Part shown: one piece after another, positions 35,501 through 40,963 of the stretch | Layout of the letters: each line of letters begins with the position of its first letter | How positions within the stretch are numbered: the stretch's first letter is position 1 | Source of the DNA: Phormidium tenue FACHB-1050 | Lineage (GTDB): Bacteria > Cyanobacteriota > Cyanobacteriia > Pseudanabaenales > Pseudanabaenaceae | Length of the DNA: 52,162 nucleotides | Assembly: GCF_014696925.1 (NCBI RefSeq) | Contig: NZ_JACJQY010000040.1 | Location: forward strand, 1-52,162 | Reading direction: 5' to 3' | The notes under the pieces: model-generated | What the model was told of the DNA's origin: nothing | Seen by the model: only the letters and a program-made list of their open reading frames with translations | Databases searched by the model: none | Program-made: the position numbers and the translations under genes

Positions 35501-35795
35501 GAGCATCGCACTTGAGTGTAGGGCTACTGCGTAAGTCTTATCTTAATACGAAAAGATCAAAGGTAAAGCGGACAAGGCCCTCCCTAAGTTATTCTCAATA
35601 AAGCTTGCGCCGTAAAATAAGGAACCAAATTTTGATAGCGCGGCGAAGCCGCGCTATCAAAATTTGGTTCCTTATTAACTAAGTACTTGGGCAAAATAAA
35701 TTACCAAAACCCATAAAGTTGCGCCCCTGCGGGGCGCAACTTTATGGGTTTTGGTTTCACTTATAAGAAGGGACGCAAAGCATCACTTCTTAGTT
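35501..35795. repeat. Gene-free stretch with two long hairpins
   Basis: Contains a 29-bp perfect hairpin (35616-35644 and 35648-35676, GAA loop, core GCGCGGC) and a 25-bp perfect hairpin (35703-35727 and 35731-35755, TGC loop, core GCGCCCC), plus GTAAGTCTTATCTTAA near 35532, which recurs in the MITE-like element at 47334. No ORF seen. Confidence 0.7.
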
Positions 35796-36131
35796 TTAGA
35801 AACTACCTACACTCAGGGGAACCCAATCACCCTTGGTGGTTAAGCCTAAAAACATGGACTCTTGCGATCGGATTGATTTACCAGTAAGCGCACAAGATTC
35901 ATTTCTCTGAGCTGTCGCCGTGACACTAGCGCGAATTTGTTCGGGTGAGATCTGCTTCTGCGTCGGTGATGTTTGCCGCTGATCAATGTAATCCCACAAA
36001 ACACCACGGATGAGAGCCTGATAGCCTTGTCCTCCAGCAAGTTCCTTGAGCTTTTCCTTTAACTCGCGTTCTAGGCGAATACTGGTAACTTCCATCTCGG
36101 TAGTTGCAGGGCTTTGATGTAGTGTCTGCAT
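35796..36131 (-). CDS. Ribbon-helix-helix (CopG-type) regulator
   Basis: A 111-residue protein. Residues about 13-50 form a ribbon-helix-helix fold: strand MEVTSIRLERE, then helices LKEKLKELAGGQG and YQALIRGVLWDYID. The C-terminal half (NESCALTGKSIRSQ, FLGLTTKGDWVPLSVGSF) is conserved-looking but unassigned. RHH dimers usually repress their own promoter by binding short tandem half-sites; such a site lies just upstream (36176-36193) and recurs before the tRNA array. SD TAGGAGAA supports ATG 36131. No toxin partner is adjacent in the usual antitoxin layout. Confidence 0.85.
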   Translation of the reverse strand: MQTLHQSPATTEMEVTSIRLERELKEKLKELAGGQGYQALIRGVLWDYIDQRQTSPTQKQISPEQIRASVTATAQRNESCALTGKSIRSQESMFLGLTTKGDWVPLSVGSF

Positions 36132-36175
36132 AAATATTTCTCCTAGTTAGTTTACAAACTTAGATATCTATGTTT

Positions 36176-36193
36176 ATACTACAAGTGTAGTAT
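36176..36193. promoter_or_regulatory. Palindromic operator ATACTAC-AAGT-GTAGTAT upstream of the RHH gene
   Basis: Two half-sites, ATACTACAAG forward (36176-36185) and its approximate mirror, form a 7-bp palindrome with a 4-base centre, about 45 bases upstream of the RHH start. On the minus strand it overlaps a TATAAA-like -10 (in AGTATAAAC). The 10-mer ATACTACAAG occurs again at 37831-37840. Confidence 0.65.
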
Positions 36194-36223
36194 GACTATC
36201 TAAGAAATTCCAAGTACATTCCC

Positions 36224-36523
36224 ATGAAATCCCATTTGTCCATCGGTCAGCATCAGAGCGGATATCCCCAAGTTTGGCAGCGAGCCAATACCTTGGCAAT
36301 ATCTGGCTTTGTGATGAACATTTTGGACAGAGATTCAATTGGGATTTGTGGCGATATTTACGGTGATATTTCTGGCGATCGCAGGAACTTAGAATCTCCC
36401 GACTATTCAGACAACAAGGGATCGAGGAGAGATGCTCTCACCAGCGTTAGCCGATTTATTAGTGCAATTAATCCAGAGACATACCCAAGCGGGAGGTATC
36501 GGCAGATCGCCATACCCACATAA
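36224..36523 (+). CDS. Doubtful 99-residue ORF, or a non-coding transcript
   Basis: An ORF without recognised domain (MKSHLSIGQHQSGYPQVW), low complexity in hydrophobicity and with GDIYGDISGD. It is divergent from the RHH gene and sits behind the same operator. A strong terminator (36545-36577, 12-bp GC-rich stem and T-run) follows, so a transcript very likely exists; whether it is translated is uncertain. No clear SD before ATG 36224. Confidence 0.35.
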   Translation: MKSHLSIGQHQSGYPQVWQRANTLAISGFVMNILDRDSIGICGDIYGDISGDRRNLESPDYSDNKGSRRDALTSVSRFISAINPETYPSGRYRQIAIPT

Positions 36524-36544
36524 CGAGTAGACAATTAAGTCTTT

Positions 36545-36577
36545 CGCCCCCGCTTTCACACCTAAGAAAGCGGGGGC
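36545..36577 (+). terminator. GC-rich rho-independent terminator
   Basis: GCCCCCGCTTTC (36545-36556) pairs with GAAAGCGGGGGC (36566-36577), loop ACACCTAA, followed by TTTTTT. Clear terminator for a rightward transcript from the 36224 region. Confidence 0.85.
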
Positions 36578-36578
36578 A

Positions 36579-36675
36579 TTTTTTGTTTTCCAATGAGTAC
36601 ATACTCATTGGAAAACAAAAAATCAATCTTAGTAAGAGTTTTGAGGTTTCATTTTGCCTACGGCAAAATGAAACC
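36579..36675. repeat. Two further hairpins upstream of the HNH gene
   Basis: A 20-bp perfect stem (36579-36598 and 36603-36622, loop ACAT) and a 14-bp perfect stem (36645-36658 and 36662-36675, loop TAC, core TTTTGCC-TAC-GGCAAAA). The second ends 24 bases before the HNH start codon, close to its ribosome binding site. Confidence 0.7.
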
Positions 36676-36698
36676 AGCTATATCGTGAGGAGAAGCCA

Positions 36699-37232
36699 GT
36701 GCAATCTATCAACCAGTATGAACCAGATGTATTGAGGCAATCGGTAGTCGTATTTTCGCAAAACTATCTGCCTGTGAGCCGTATCAATATCAAACGTGCG
36801 ATCGCTTTGCTCGTCACAGGTCGCGCTGAACCCTTGGAACTAATGAGCCAACAAACTTGGCAAGTTGTTTCCCCCAGACTCGTCCTGCAAGTGCCAGAGC
36901 ATATCCGTCTGACGCTGACGAAATCGGAACGATTTTGGCGAGTTCCACCTGTCGCCCGTAGAGAAATCCTGCGTCGTGACAATCACACTTGTCAATATTG
37001 CGGCAACACTAAAAACCTGACGATCGATCACGTCGTTCCCCGCGCTAAGGGTGGCTTGAACACTTGGGAAAACGTTGTCATTGCTTGTGAACCTTGCAAT
37101 AACCGTAAGGGAAATCGCACGCCTCATGAAGCCAATATGACTTTGCGGACTAAGCCCAAAGCCCCAATGCATCCTACCGTTGCCTTTGCTGAACAATTCT
37201 GGCGATCGCAGCAAGAAATAAACAGTGGATAG
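36699..37232 (+). CDS. HNH endonuclease
   Basis: A 177-residue protein starting at GTG 36699 with a strong SD (GAGGAGAAG). The C-terminal HNH domain has Zn-binding pairs C98/C101 (CQYCG) and C130/C133 (CEPC), and the HNH core D110-H111 (LTIDHVVPRAKGG) with N in CEPCNNRKGNRTP. The N-terminal ~85 residues (QSVVVFSQNYLPVSRINIKRA) are a conserved partner domain seen in cyanobacterial HNH proteins. All catalytic residues are present. It lies just upstream of the uncharacterised 128-residue gene and the tRNA array. Confidence 0.9.
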   Translation: MQSINQYEPDVLRQSVVVFSQNYLPVSRINIKRAIALLVTGRAEPLELMSQQTWQVVSPRLVLQVPEHIRLTLTKSERFWRVPPVARREILRRDNHTCQYCGNTKNLTIDHVVPRAKGGLNTWENVVIACEPCNNRKGNRTPHEANMTLRTKPKAPMHPTVAFAEQFWRSQQEINSG

Positions 37233-37243
37233 CGATCCATATC

Positions 37244-37280
37244 GCGATTTTCAAGTTGCCGATGACAGCTTGAAAATCGC
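37244..37280. repeat. Hairpin between the HNH and 128-residue genes
   Basis: A 12-bp perfect stem GCGATTTTCAAG (37244-37255) with 37269-37280. It separates two same-strand genes and may trim or attenuate read-through. Confidence 0.55.
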
Positions 37281-37319
37281 TCCCAATTTAGAGTTGTATA
37301 TTCTGGAGAATCAATCCCA

Positions 37320-37706
37320 ATGTTGAAACTCACTTACACTGAAGCTGGATTGCACTTAGAGAGATTAGATATCTCCTTAGAGGAGTTTGTCACCAATCGG
37401 ATGTTGCTCAGCTTGCGTTCTGGCTTATCAATACATATCGAATCCAGTCGAGCAGCATTTCTATTAACTGCGGATGTTGTGGATTTATTGTTACTAAAGT
37501 CTGTCATGTCCGATCGCCTCTCTAATAAGCTTAGTGTGGATAGAGTTGACGATCGCTATGTTGAAGTTTGCTTCAGTGGTACTTGGATATCTAGCGATCT
37601 CTGTGCTGAGGAAGGAACTCTAGTGACTGCTTTAGGCGATCGCGTTGAGTTCTATTTACACAAACTCTGGAAGATCAGCGAGTCTACTTTGACATTCGCA
37701 AATTGA
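37320..37706 (+). CDS. Conserved cyanobacterial hypothetical protein, 128 residues
   Basis: MLKLTYTEAGLHLERLDISLEE is followed by a region of alternating strands and helices (ESSRAAFLLTADVVDLLLLK, DDRYVEVCFSGTWISSD). I recognise it as a family of small cyanobacterial proteins beginning M-L-x-L-T-Y-T-E but know no function. No membrane segment or catalytic motif is apparent. It follows the HNH gene by 87 bases and precedes the tRNA array; its own terminator follows at once. Confidence 0.75.
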   Translation: MLKLTYTEAGLHLERLDISLEEFVTNRMLLSLRSGLSIHIESSRAAFLLTADVVDLLLLKSVMSDRLSNKLSVDRVDDRYVEVCFSGTWISSDLCAEEGTLVTALGDRVEFYLHKLWKISESTLTFAN

Positions 37707-37712
37707 CATTCG

Positions 37713-37754
37713 GAAAGATGACATGTATTGCTTAGGAAATACATGTCATCTTTC
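37713..37754. terminator. Terminator after the 128-residue gene
   Basis: A 17-bp perfect stem (37713-37729 and 37738-37754) with an 8-base loop, seven bases after the stop codon, followed by a few T. It separates the protein-coding genes from the tRNA-array promoter. Confidence 0.75.
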
Positions 37755-37799
37755 TTGAAAAGCTTTTCAAAGAGAATCAAAATAATTTTGAGAAACCAC

Positions 37800-37840
37800 T
37801 TGACAATCTTGTAGTACATGTACTACAAATATACTACAAG
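37800..37840 (+). promoter_or_regulatory. Promoter and triple operator before the tRNA array
   Basis: A consensus -35 TTGACA (37800-37805) is followed after 17-18 bases by CTACAA/TACAAA as a -10; TATACT at 37830 is an alternative. The spacer is a 20-bp perfect palindrome, TTGTAGTACATGTACTACAA (37809-37828). A further half-site ATACTACAAG follows (37831-37840), spaced 11 bases from the previous forward half-site GTACTACAA. The half-site is that of the RHH gene's operator, so repression of the array by the RHH protein is predicted. Confidence 0.65.
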
Positions 37841-37908
37841 GCAATTACAAAAGCCTCTGAACCTTGACAACTGAATAATCATCACAAGTTCAAAACTATA
37901 AAACATTA

Positions 37909-37982
37909 CTCTTAGTAGCTCAGTTGGTAGTAGCGCCTGTCTGAAGAACAGGAGGTCGTCAGTTCAATTCTGACCTAAGGGG
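37909..37982 (+). tRNA. tRNA-Phe (GAA)
   Basis: 74 bases. Acceptor CTCTTAG pairs with CTAAGGG; anticodon arm CCTGT-CTGAAGA-ACAGG gives anticodon GAA; T arm GTCAG-TTCAATT-CTGAC. No CCA encoded. The D arm carries an extra T (GGTAGTAGC), so the D stem is irregular. First tRNA of the array, about 70 bases from the promoter. Confidence 0.85.
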
Positions 37983-38092
37983 CTTATCCCATAATCATGT
38001 GAAGTGTATTACACTTCACATGATTAAAATCATTGCCCAGTAAGGTTTTGAAGTTTTAAAAATGGCTTTTCCATTTTTAAAACTTGGATTAT

Positions 38093-38165
38093 TGCCTTGT
38101 AGCTCAGTGGTAGTAGCGATCGCCTGTTAAGCGAGAGGTCGTAGGTTCAATGCCTACCAAGGCAG
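38093..38165 (+). tRNA. tRNA-Asn (GTT)
   Basis: 73 bases. Acceptor TGCCTTG with CAAGGCA; anticodon loop CTGTTAA (anticodon GTT); T arm GTAGG-TTCAATG-CCTAC. Anticodon stem ATCGC/GCGAG has one mismatch and includes a HIP1 octamer. The D arm has the same GGTAGTAGC irregularity as tRNA-Phe. No CCA encoded. Confidence 0.85.
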
Positions 38166-38179
38166 TTGGTATTTTTTTC

Positions 38180-38252
38180 GCTCCTGTAGCCCAATGGAAG
38201 AGGCGTTCGGCTTAGAACCGAAGCGTTGGAGGTTCAAATCCTCTCAGGAGTA
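38180..38252 (+). tRNA. tRNA with UAG anticodon (Leu codon CUA), class I shape
   Basis: 73 bases. Acceptor GCTCCTG with CAGGAGT; anticodon arm TTCGG-CTTAGAA-CCGAA gives anticodon UAG, reading CUA (Leu). T arm GGAGG-TTCAAAT-CCTCT. The variable loop is only GCGTT, whereas bacterial tRNA-Leu has a long variable arm, so aminoacyl identity is uncertain. No CCA encoded. Confidence 0.75.
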
Positions 38253-38497
38253 TCGAATAGAAGTAATACTTTGTATTACTTCTATTCTCTTCATAACAAT
38301 TGCTTGATTTAACTACATCAGGTCATTGGAAATTATATCCAGTAAAGTTTGTGAGTTTTGAAAATGGCAAAGCCATTTTCAAAACTAGTATTATACCAAT
38401 TCCCGAAAGTGTGGCTACACTTTTGGGGGTTAAAACCCAAACCCAGTAAGGGTTTTCAAATCACAAAATGGCGTAGCCATTTTGTGATTTGGTATTA

Positions 38498-38569
38498 CCA
38501 GGTGTGGCGCAGAGGTAGCGCGGCTGCTTTGGGAGCAGAAGGTCATAGGTTCAATCCCTATCACTTGGA
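38498..38569 (+). tRNA. tRNA-Pro (TGG)
   Basis: 72 bases. Acceptor CCAGGTG with CACTTGG; anticodon loop TTTGGGA (anticodon TGG); T arm ATAGG-TTCAATC-CCTAT. One anticodon-stem mismatch (GCTGC/GCAGA). No CCA encoded. Confidence 0.85.
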
Positions 38570-38640
38570 TACAGCGCTAAGCGCTGAGAGCAATTCAAGA
38601 AAAACTTGCGAAGTAAGTTTTTCTTGAATTGGAAAAGCTA

Positions 38641-38717
38641 TGCAGGGATGGAGCAAGGGAGGCTCTTGAGACTCATAACCTCAAAATCGGCAGGTTCAAC
38701 TCCTGCCTCTGCAACCA
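38641..38717 (+). tRNA. tRNA with CAT anticodon (Met/fMet/Ile2), CCA encoded
   Basis: 77 bases including a genome-encoded CCA, the only one of the array to have it. Acceptor TGCAGGG with CTCTGCA; D stem GAGC/GCTC, giving an A11-U24 pair typical of initiators; anticodon loop CTCATAA; T arm GCAGG-TTCAACT-CCTGC. The first base pair is matched (T-A), unlike bacterial initiators. Identity among Met, initiator and lysidine-Ile cannot be settled by eye. Confidence 0.8.
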
Positions 38718-38768
38718 ACTATCACTTAGATTCATCGTGCAAAGCACGATGAATCTAAAAATACTTTT

Positions 38769-38841
38769 GCTGGTGTAGCTCAACTGGCAGAGCATCTGTC
38801 TTGTAAACAGAATGTTACAGGTTCAATTCCTGTCATCAGCT
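38769..38841 (+). tRNA. tRNA-Thr (TGT)
   Basis: 73 bases. Acceptor GCTGGTG with CATCAGC; D stem GCTC/GAGC; anticodon arm TCTGT-CTTGTAA-ACAGA (anticodon TGT); T arm ACAGG-TTCAATT-CCTGT. The most regular tRNA of the array. No CCA encoded. Confidence 0.9.
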
Positions 38842-38990
38842 TAAAACCCGCAATAGATTTCTCCTACGGAGAAATCTATTGCCTACTAATTCAGGAGAAC
38901 GATCATGTTGCATTTTTACTTATCCCATTCATTGAAATTTCTCTACTGCATCATCAGCATTCAGCACTCCGTTATTAGATATTTGAGATT

Positions 38991-39461
38991 ATGAGCGAAC
39001 ATCGCCTCGAAGAAATTGTGATCGAACGTCCGCGTGGTGGCATGAGACAAAGCTCTCGCAGATTAAAAGGTGTACGAAAGAAACTCGATCGCTTAACCCT
39101 TGTGGCTGCCGAAGATGGTTTACTCAGTCCCTACTTAATTAAAGTAAGACAGAAAACCAAATACTTCTCCGATCATCTGGCTCCATTACGACGATTTTTG
39201 CGATCGCATGTTGGTCAACCTTGGGATTTGGTGTATAGCAAACTATGCGATCGCCTTGACCAAAGAACGGCGACTGGACAGCATGTGGTTACGCATCTCT
39301 GGCAGTACGTGGAACGCTATGTCGAAATTGTTGATGGCAAACCCTGCCGTAAGCCATATCAACCTCGCTACCTTGGCGACGGATGTTTTGGCAGAAGGTA
39401 TGACGAATTTTATGTTCATCCTGAAACAGGGTTGCTATGTGAAGCAAAACGCTTGCTTTAA
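38991..39461 (+). CDS. Uncharacterised 156-residue basic protein inside the tRNA array
   Basis: MSEHRLEEIVIERPRGGMRQ opens a very basic protein. The core is KYFSDHLAPLRRFLRSHVGQPWDLVYSKLCDRL, then a helical region (TGQHVVTHLWQYVERYVEI) and a tail with DGCFGRRYDEFYVHPETGLLCEAK. I associate the LAPLRRFL-xxx-VGxPWDxVYxxL core with an uncharacterised family found outside cyanobacteria too, but cannot verify. The positive charge and location between tRNA-Thr and tRNA-Arg suggest an RNA-binding role; this is inference. Directly followed by a 17-bp hairpin. Confidence 0.75.
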   Translation: MSEHRLEEIVIERPRGGMRQSSRRLKGVRKKLDRLTLVAAEDGLLSPYLIKVRQKTKYFSDHLAPLRRFLRSHVGQPWDLVYSKLCDRLDQRTATGQHVVTHLWQYVERYVEIVDGKPCRKPYQPRYLGDGCFGRRYDEFYVHPETGLLCEAKRLL

Positions 39462-39501
39462 AAAATAGAGAGTGGGCTTTGCCCACTCTCTATTTTTATT
39501 T

Positions 39502-39573
39502 GGGAATGTCGCCTAATGGAGGGGCATCGATCTTCTAAATCGATCTGTGTAGGTTCGAGTCCTACCATTCCTG
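39502..39573 (+). tRNA. tRNA-Arg (TCT)
   Basis: 72 bases. Acceptor GGGAATG with CATTCCT; anticodon stem TCGAT/ATCGA around loop CTTCTAA (anticodon TCT, codon AGA); T arm GTAGG-TTCGAGT-CCTAC. D arm GCCTAATGGAGGGGC is irregular. No CCA encoded. Last gene of the array, followed by a hairpin at 39579. Confidence 0.85.
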
Positions 39574-39742
39574 TAAAGCTGATTTGCCCGCTTCGTGGGC
39601 AAATCAGATTCTTTTGCTTTTTAAACCGATGTACTTATAGCTCACGCAAAACATGCGATTATTTAATGAAAGTTTGATTGGGGATAGCGATCGCATTATG
39701 ATATTTGCACTGTAAATAGTATGCGTACTGAGAGCGAGGTTA

Positions 39743-40963
39743 ATGACTGCCCAAACAACACATCACAAGTCTGAGCATGAGCCAAGCAGCCCAAAGGACT
39801 GGTCGTGGAAATTTTGGCAGGTCGTGCCGCTGTATCCCTATGGTCAGAGACGCACTATTCGCAAAGAAATTGTTAAGGATGCCATCTGGACTTTCGAGCA
39901 GATTCAGGGGATTTTTTATGTAGTTGTTCCAATCAGCATGACGGTGGTGAAACTAGCGGCTGGAGGACTGCTGGTATATGCGCCCGTTGCTCCGACTCCT
40001 GAATGTATTCGCCTCGTAAATGAATTGGTCGCTGAGCATGGCGATATCAAATACATCATTTTGCCCACCGTGTCAGGAATTGAGCATAAGGTTTTTGTGG
40101 GGCCATTTGCACGGCAGTTTCCCAAGGCTCACGTTTATGTCTCGCCACACCAATGGAGCTTCCCATTCAATTTGCCGCTCAGTTGGTTAGGTTTACCTTG
40201 GGGACGCACATCGCTGTTACCTGAGGATAGCTCAAAGGTTCCCTTTGCTGATCAGTTGGACTATGCGGTTCTAGGTTCGATTGAACTGGGATTAGGAAAA
40301 TTTGCGGAGGTAGCACTATTTGACAAGCGATCGCAGACTCTTTTAGTTACGGACACGATTGTTTCCGTTCCTGAAAAGCCGCCAGAAATATTACAAATTG
40401 ATCCTTATCCATTGCTTTTTCATGCAAGAGACAGCGCAGATGAACCAATTGTCGATACAGAAGTGAATCGGATTCGCGGTTGGCAAAGAACGGCTTTATT
40501 TCTATTCTATTTCCGTCCACAAGTTTTGGAAACTGTTTCCTTTTTTCAAGCCTTACTAGATATTACCAAAGCACCTGAGCGATCGCGTAAAGCCTTGTTC
40601 GGTCTATACCCTTTTCGCTGGAAATATAACTGGCATCAATCCTTTGAATCTCTACGAGGCAATGGACGCATTTTTGTCGCGCCCATCCTTCAGACTCTCA
40701 TTCTCAATCGCGATCCGCAAACAGTAATTGCATGGGCAGATAAAGTTGCTAGCTGGAATTTTGTGCGGATTGTTCCTTGTCATTTTGACAATGCGATCGC
40801 GGCAACACCCACCGAGTTTCGTCAAGCCTTTAGCTTTTTAGAAAAGAATCCGCAACCTTCTACAATTACGAACCTGCCTGAAGAAGACTTTGAAGTTCTC
40901 AATCAAATCAATAATATTTTACAGGGCAATCGAATTATTTTTGAAGCCAAGGAAAAAATTTAA
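39743..40963 (+). CDS. DUF4336 domain protein
   Basis: A 406-residue protein of the DUF4336 family, common in cyanobacteria and plants and thought to have a metallo-beta-lactamase-like fold. Visible features: WSWKFWQVVPLYPYGQRRT at the N-terminus, LLVYAPVAPTPECIRLV, IKYIILPTVSGIEHKVF, LLVTDTIVSVPEKPP. Strong SD (GAGCGAGGT) before ATG 39743. Not predicted to be secreted. Function unknown. Confidence 0.85.
   Translation: MTAQTTHHKSEHEPSSPKDWSWKFWQVVPLYPYGQRRTIRKEIVKDAIWTFEQIQGIFYVVVPISMTVVKLAAGGLLVYAPVAPTPECIRLVNELVAEHGDIKYIILPTVSGIEHKVFVGPFARQFPKAHVYVSPHQWSFPFNLPLSWLGLPWGRTSLLPEDSSKVPFADQLDYAVLGSIELGLGKFAEVALFDKRSQTLLVTDTIVSVPEKPPEILQIDPYPLLFHARDSADEPIVDTEVNRIRGWQRTALFLFYFRPQVLETVSFFQALLDITKAPERSRKALFGLYPFRWKYNWHQSFESLRGNGRIFVAPILQTLILNRDPQTVIAWADKVASWNFVRIVPCHFDNAIAATPTEFRQAFSFLEKNPQPSTITNLPEEDFEVLNQINNILQGNRIIFEAKEKI

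Follow-up and report, generated by a model that had tools for sequence, protein, structure and literature searches.

Why should the gene for a small RHH-type protein and a tRNA operon 1.7 kb away carry the same short sequence at their promoters? This question was raised by a 52,162-nucleotide stretch of DNA from Phormidium tenue FACHB-1050 (here, the window), which is contig C35 of a 5.63-Mb genome. A sequence-only reading of this DNA had proposed that the RHH protein represses both itself and the tRNA array, making the tRNAs inducible. This proposal was supported by the orthology of the protein to TrcR, by its operator motif, by the flanking gene, by an rtcB target and by the redundancy of the tRNAs, with binding and induction carried over from Anabaena. 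Very probably, the window holds a cyanobacterial TrcR-trn module in which TrcR controls trcR and the array; its features are listed in Table 1.

Table 1. Features of the trcR-array region, in positions of the window.
Feature	Position	Strand	Remarks
trcR ortholog, 111-aa RHH-type repressor	35796..36131	-	single match in own genome
trcR operator	36176..36193	.	reads ATACTACACTTGTAGTAT on the trcR strand; 2 mismatches vs the footprinted Anabaena motif
HNH endonuclease gene, alr0856 counterpart	36699..37232	+	Pfam HNH_5, 2e-16
alr0857-family gene, 128 aa	37320..37706	+	NCBIfam NF045647, 144.7 bits (cut-off 75)
TTGACA, putative -35 of array promoter	37800..37805	+	fixed spacing in other leaders
Perfect 20-bp operator palindrome, two half-sites	37809..37828	.	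shape as in the palindrome before rtcB
Third half-site TACTACA, over putative TATACT -10	37832..37838	+	11 bp downstream of second half-site
boxA antitermination motif in array leader	37859..37877	+	GAACCTTGANAACT match, also before 23S rRNA
tRNA array, first six: Phe, Asn, Leu, Pro, Met, Thr	37909..38841	+	ARAGORN
156-aa gene inside array	38991..39461	+	homologs in other arrays and behind second leader type
tRNA-Arg(tct), last of array	39501..39574	+	ARAGORN

From sequence comparisons, we identified the RHH protein as the ortholog of TrcR (all0854). Homologs were present in 61 of 194 genomes of the phylum, every match lying within this class. The protein was 90–98% identical to the TrcRs of Pseudanabaena loci L083 and L085-L089 and 57–60% identical to homologs at the Anabaena/Nostoc/Trichormus loci L106, L108 and L113, All0854 itself being outside this comparison. 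Leu44 and Ala72 of TrcR are the residues changed in BMAA-resistant Anabaena mutants (PMC10272220), and the equivalent columns, with numbering counted on L108, were invariant in all 26 aligned homologs. Further, the footprinted motif ATACTACACTTGTATTAC was found with at most 3 mismatches in 41 of the 45 named trcR loci, the window differing from it at 2 of 18 positions; no clear motif was seen at the other four (L096, L097, L124 and L125), which counts against the main reading.

Assignment to the RHH class was less distinct, as TrcR scored 16.2 bits against Pfam RHH_1, below the cut-off of 20.5, and gave an Arc-like PHROG match with an E value of 0.0012. Its AlphaFold monomer model (pLDDT 79.8, pTM 0.46) matched no PDB entry at E 0.001, no RHH protein was recognised among its best 50 structure matches, and a profile search of solved structures returned nothing credible. 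Mobility of the module was unsupported, since TrcR matched nothing in the phage set at E 1e-5 and a single plasmid entry only weakly (40% identity), and the 156-aa protein had no match among the plasmid collection. Two cyanophage TrcR homologs are named in PMC10272220; they were absent among the matches in the phage set searched.

In Anabaena 7120, EMSA, footprinting, reporter assays and a deletion demonstrated that TrcR represses itself and the trn array and that translation inhibitors act as inducers; the 26-tRNA trn operon, rtcB, rsgA, rimK and other genes are silenced by it (PMC10272220). The core of TrcR-array control is therefore already published for Anabaena, in the only paper retrieved from the literature on TrcR with cyanobacteria and tRNA. 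This genome shares with that system the ortholog, the operator motif, the autorepression site, the HNH and alr0857 neighbours, a redundant tRNA array, TGTAGTA sites at the array promoter and the rtcB site. In contrast with the Anabaena trn array, which has 26 tRNAs and lies on a megaplasmid, the array here has seven tRNAs beside trcR, with three half-sites in 11-bp steps, and a locus of rsr and tRNA-like RNAs is a further predicted target. A mechanism shown in one strain would extend to the distant genus Pseudanabaena. Relative to the literature searched, the array-trcR linkage, the paired-site code, the boxA leader and the Ro60 link are new, as predictions from sequence.

The sequence evidence for shared control starts with ATACTACAAG, which, as the earlier reading had noted, occurs at both 36176-36185 and 37831-37840. 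The first copy lies in the palindrome over the RHH promoter, ATACTACA-AG-TGTAGTAT, whose 8-bp arms are perfect and in which 16 of 18 letters are self-complementary. At the array, the perfect palindrome TTGTAGTACATGTACTACAA adds two more half-sites, giving three that are spaced at exactly 11 bp, with starts at 37810 (reverse), 37821 and 37832. This geometry, including the 11-base distance between the two forward sites and the TTGACA of the array promoter, was as first described. As the operator reads ATACTACACTTGTAGTAT on the trcR strand, the true common core is TACTACA and the shared 10-mer is partly luck. Within the window, TACTACAA occurred 7 times vs 1.22 expected, a number reached in 0 of 100 shuffles; the 10-mer ATACTACAAG with one mismatch showed no enrichment (4 vs 2.5).

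Many unrelated genomic copies of the site had been named as a finding that would speak against the proposal. Single half-sites TACTACAA were indeed common (77 + 73 = 150 in 5.6 Mb, with a higher backward control of 159 + 163 = 322), but paired sites were rare. TGTARTAN{2,5}TAYTACA was found at two loci in 5.6 Mb, the array and rtcB (control 0), and TGTARTAN{2,5}TGTARTA at four places (control 2): the array, rsr, a poor site whose step is 12 bp and another poor site with TGTAATA halves. Exact TACTACANNTGTAGTA was confined to the trcR promoter genome-wide, with a single place at 1 mismatch (C47:18493); when up to 2 mismatches were allowed, no enrichment was seen (14 places vs 35 in the control). 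Together, the three paired patterns selected the RHH promoter, the array promoter, rtcB and the Ro60 (rsr) locus, plus the two poor sites, from the whole genome. This rarity makes chance or resemblance to a -10 element an unlikely source of the sites. The paired half-site operator code can be searched for in any cyanobacterial genome.

A simple sigma-70 scan found no -35/-10 pair at the array promoter, which counts against the main reading, and its matches in the region were not above shuffles (6 vs 7.5). A LexA-type box at the 20-bp palindrome was rejected, as the spacing of its GTAC elements does not fit that of LexA sites. Three features, the boxA leader, the rtcB site and the rsr site, came in addition to those of the sequence-only reading.

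To what extent do operator and array occur together elsewhere? Among the 10 named Pseudanabaenaceae trcR loci (L083-L092), at least three tRNAs lay beside trcR in four (L084, L085, L086 and L092), and all four carried the operator promoter TTGACA-N4-TGTARYA-N4-TACTACA, some half-sites being altered by 1–2 bases. At the loci with none or one tRNA (L083 and L087-L091), no exact half-site was found within 4.6 kb except for the trcR operator; one of them, L091, retained a tRNA-Phe without the operator, which counts against the main reading. In Oscillatoria princeps (L104), an 18-tRNA array with a related leader starts 2.8 kb from trcR. When leaders were collected by boxA alone, all 8 that carried a site (L146, L147, L149, L163, L165, L166, L169 and L170) had the TTGACA-N4-TGTARYA spacing; one L104 leader has N5 after TTGACA. 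The third half-site TACTACA was exact in L221, L222, L223 and L225 and altered in L224 and L220.

Class-wide, 18 places, spread over 14 of the 388 genomes, had the operator promoter followed by boxA, with none in the control; the pattern used fixes the N4 spacing first seen in the leaders found by boxA alone. Thirteen of the 18 leaders precede 3–15 tRNAs within about 1.5 kb. Four (L215, L216, L218 and L232) have 0–1 tRNA within that distance, which counts against the main reading, and one place (L217) looks like a chance repeat. TrcR was encoded in 14/14 genomes with an array leader, which is weak support because TrcR is common in the class; by coordinates, leader and trcR are less than 3 kb apart in eight of them (G000, G193, G272, G323, G403, G436, G172 and G314). 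In addition, 5 of 40 trcR regions (L184, L186, L188, L196 and L204) had 14–25 tRNAs within 9 kb of trcR on the side of the array, and in all five a TGTAGTA pair is followed by boxA at a distance of about 280 bp. Linkage of trcR and array thus recurs, and the majority of the trcR loci read have no nearby array.

The array itself consists of seven tRNAs and the internal 156-aa gene, whose product had no credible match in Pfam, NCBIfam, PHROG or PDB and gave a structure model with a pLDDT of 57.8. Each of the seven anticodons is also found on a tRNA encoded elsewhere in the genome, and therefore silencing of the array need not be lethal. It could also be a decaying relic whose regulation has no physiological effect: its tRNAs are 63–78% identical to the nearest housekeeping tRNA, the Leu tRNA is shortened, tRNA-Met scores 31.6 bits, the make-up of arrays differs between loci, and there are near relatives without one. 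We regard this as unlikely, since operator, promoter and boxA are recognisably kept across array loci where other upstream sequence and tRNA content vary, and since higher trn expression favoured survival of Anabaena under antibiotics (PMC10272220).

Slightly less probable still is that most transcripts of the array come by readthrough from the divergent promoter of the HNH-alr0857 operon, which TrcR controls, the array operator being secondary. In line with this, deletion of trcR in Anabaena raises asr0855, alr0856 and alr0857 (PMC10272220), and arrays lie downstream of the HNH-alr0857 operon both here and in L184, L186, L188, L196 and L204. However, in front of the array lies a promoter-like TTGACA stretch of fixed spacing, which recurs at arrays away from trcR (G039, G099, G129, G366 and G372). 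An HNH homolog adjoins trcR in 26 of the 40 trcR regions examined, some of which are partial.

BlaI/MecI-type repressors likewise use TACTACA/TGTAGTA dyads. Nevertheless, that such another repressor with a TACTACA core acts at the array and rtcB while TrcR controls only itself is very improbable, even though the geometry is unlike (TACTACA-N2-TGTAGTA at trcR vs TGTAGTA-N4-TACTACA at array and rtcB), given that TrcR is present in all 14 genomes with the array leader and that footprints of Anabaena TrcR itself were obtained at trn and all3526 (the rtcB target), target kinds as here (PMC10272220).

The array leader carries GAACCTTGACAACTGAATA 20 bp beyond the last half-site. In the 5.6 Mb, GAACCTTGANAACT has just two copies (control 0), one in this leader and one between the tRNA-Ala and 23S rRNA genes. 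The boxA motif is, over 15 letters, the reverse complement of a cyanobacterial ITS box A primer given in PMC9769826. Across the 194 phylum genomes, GAACCTTGANAACTRAATA was found at 30 places in 24 genomes (control 0); ten of these places have six or more tRNAs within the next 1.5 kb, two come after the tRNA-Ala sequence of an rRNA spacer (one of them judged by eye), and many others resemble rRNA leaders, as judged by eye only. The leader is like rRNA boxA antitermination leaders in having GAACCTTGAMAACT, as in this genome's 16S-23S spacer, and unlike them in that boxA fronts a tRNA operon behind a repressor operator. We therefore lean towards the view that the array boxA mediates rRNA-type, Nus-dependent antitermination through the palindromic spacers, which suggests a way to complete a long untranslated tRNA transcript. 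Against this view, cyanobacteria lack Rho (PMC13289151), which leaves boxA without an evident factor to antagonise. Neither boxA nor antitermination appears in the main text of PMC10272220, and the literature on boxA, judged by titles, held no tRNA-array leader.

The gene at the other TGTARTAN{2,5}TAYTACA locus is rtcB (PF01139). Its upstream sequence CATATTGTAGTATGCATACTACAATATG (G000:C45:182479) is a perfect 28-bp palindrome, the 20-bp core of which ends 15 bp before the putative ATG, and from these features it is highly probable that rtcB is under TrcR control here. On a separate contig, the tandem site TGTAGTACGTGTAGTATAAATGTAGTG (C1:29625) is followed after 0.9 kb by a Ro60 ortholog (G000:C1 from 30560), which matched TROVE (PF05731, 7.4e-17), the Ro60 vWA domain (PF25045, 2.6e-39) and D. 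radiodurans Rsr (2nvo, E 1.2e-77). Between TGTAGTACGTGTAGTATAAATGTAGTG and rsr lie tRNA-like RNAs with an insert, one of which scored 42.2 bits to RF00005 with no ARAGORN call; the five Pseudanabaena rsr loci tested (L249-L253) each had a tRNA-model match of 42–46 bits.

TROVE-bearing genomes numbered 19 of 116 searched. A pair with no more than 1 mismatch in 14 positions was found within 1.8 kb upstream in nine, this genome included (L249-L254, L260, L265 and L266), five of which (L249-L253) are close relatives, and at the other 10 loci no pair was found at that threshold. Shuffled upstream regions had a mean of 0–0.15 pairs, even with 2 mismatches allowed; the pair counts of L254 and L265 were equalled in 1 and 2 of 40 shuffles, respectively. 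TrcR is present in 18 of the 19 genomes. The one without it, G245, has no site, and nine genomes with TrcR likewise lack a good site. On balance, these upstream pairs make control of rsr by TrcR likely, with distinctly less confidence than for rtcB.

The sites, the rarity of their pairing, their conservation, the orthology of TrcR, the redundant tRNAs and the boxA motif are shown here by sequence, and binding, repression and induction by the work on Anabaena. Taking these results together, we propose that paired TACTACA half-sites are the binding sites of TrcR dimers. Over the trcR promoter, where the two half-sites lie tail to tail, binding would bring about autorepression, and on the three half-sites over the array promoter, set at one-turn steps of 11 bp, TrcR would block RNA polymerase. 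Under damage to translation or tRNAs the level of TrcR would fall, as it does in Anabaena under chloramphenicol (PMC10272220); that tRNA damage is the signal for release is a tentative suggestion, held at somewhat under even chances. The array would then be transcribed as one long RNA, with boxA allowing an rRNA-type antitermination complex to pass the hairpin-rich spacers, and its products would be a redundant, divergent tRNA set. TrcR would also release rtcB, encoding a tRNA ligase, and the operon of tRNA-like RNAs and Ro60/Rsr, so that array, rtcB and rsr open together under stress.

Through the predicted targets, spare tRNA arrays would be linked with RNA repair and with Ro60, the bacterial role of which is, to our knowledge, little understood. 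By a narrow margin over even odds, we favour the broader view of TrcR as the master switch of a cyanobacterial RNA-damage regulon, comprising RtcB, the Ro60 operon with its tRNA-like (Y-type) RNAs and boxA-antiterminated spare divergent tRNAs under one operator code with 9- to 11-bp steps. If true, cut or jammed tRNAs would be repaired, cleared and replaced together, and the regulon would correspond to the proteobacterial RtcR system while being built on a repressor and also including tRNA replacement. In Salmonella, one activator that responds to cut tRNAs governs rsr, Y RNAs and rtcBA (PMC7790460). The rsr-yrlBA-rtcBA operon controlled there by RtcR resembles the predicted joint control here of rtcB and a Ro60 ortholog with tRNA-like RNAs. 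In contrast with RtcR, a sigma54-type activator with a CARF domain (PMC7790460), TrcR is a small RHH-type repressor, and among its Pfam and NCBIfam matches neither a sigma54 bEBP nor a CARF domain was found.

The tRNA-like RNAs before rsr are no more than candidate Y RNAs. The YrlA model RF02553 matched at best with 37.7 bits vs a gathering threshold of 69, the rsr locus of this genome giving only the tRNA-like match, and matches of 25–28 bits also occurred inside the L233 tRNA array. Titles in the literature on YrlA or Rsr/Y RNA with cyanobacteria concerned other subjects. A protein of ~500 aa near the second leaders of family f11 (L233, L235 and L236) was considered as Ro60 from a likeness by eye only; the L235 copy found no support from Pfam, PDB sequences or direct comparison with Rsr. 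These second operator-boxA leaders precede weak YrlA-like RNA matches of 34–38 bits (cut-off 69), and in two of the three a homolog of the window's 156-aa protein lies behind the leader.

The lengths of the Leu tRNAs encoded in the arrays were recorded for the window and for 14 further array loci (L085, L086, L253, L184, L186, L188, L196, L204, L203, L226, L229, L231, L233 and L234). As called, these tRNAs were mostly 73–79 nt long, in contrast with the 81–84 nt of the housekeeping Leu tRNAs in the window's own genome; exceptions were the Leu(taa) tRNAs of L104, L233 and L234 (83–84 nt). Array Ser tRNAs measured 83–92 nt. The short Leu tRNAs might carry no amino acid or a wrong one, or serve as decoys. 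They could relate to the lowered translational fidelity that a section heading of PMC10272220 attributes to deletion of trcR, the gene of the RHH-type repressor TrcR.

Coordinates of features in the window and at the rsr locus of the same genome
Feature	Location	Strand
Array tRNA-Leu	window 38180-38252	
156-aa protein gene	window 38991-39461	+
Palindrome-rich region	window 35640-38880	
Region scanned for hairpins	window 35700-39800	
rsr locus with three tRNA-like stretches (L249)	G000:C1:29625-32161	

The 156-aa protein belongs to a family with the N-terminus MSEHRL, further members being found in L104, L235, L236, L253 and L255, either within tRNA arrays or behind a second TrcR-boxA leader; the L255 member lies ~1.5 kb from a TROVE gene. 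No credible match to the 156-aa protein was obtained in Pfam, NCBIfam, PHROG or PDB. Downstream of the second leader, L233, L235 and L236 also encode a ~500-aa protein with a DKSGSM motif, accompanied in L233 and L235 by a 153–157-aa neighbour; the L235 copy matched nothing in Pfam or PDB, nor Rsr. The operator-boxA leader of L237 (G118:C155) had no tRNA within 9.5 kb downstream.

More than one TrcR-like match was detected in genomes G060, G185, G217, G227, G243 and G247, some being fragments of a single gene.

Ahead of rsr, the Ro60 ortholog gene, three tandem tRNA-like stretches sharing GGTTATCGC were recognised by eye, one being scored by Rfam. These may represent cyanobacterial Y RNAs outside the coverage of RF02553, the YrlA model.

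In the window, long palindromes occupied the stretches that separate one array tRNA from the next, as well as other intergenic regions. Terminator-like hairpins at 35700-39800 numbered 10, compared to 3.8 in shuffles.
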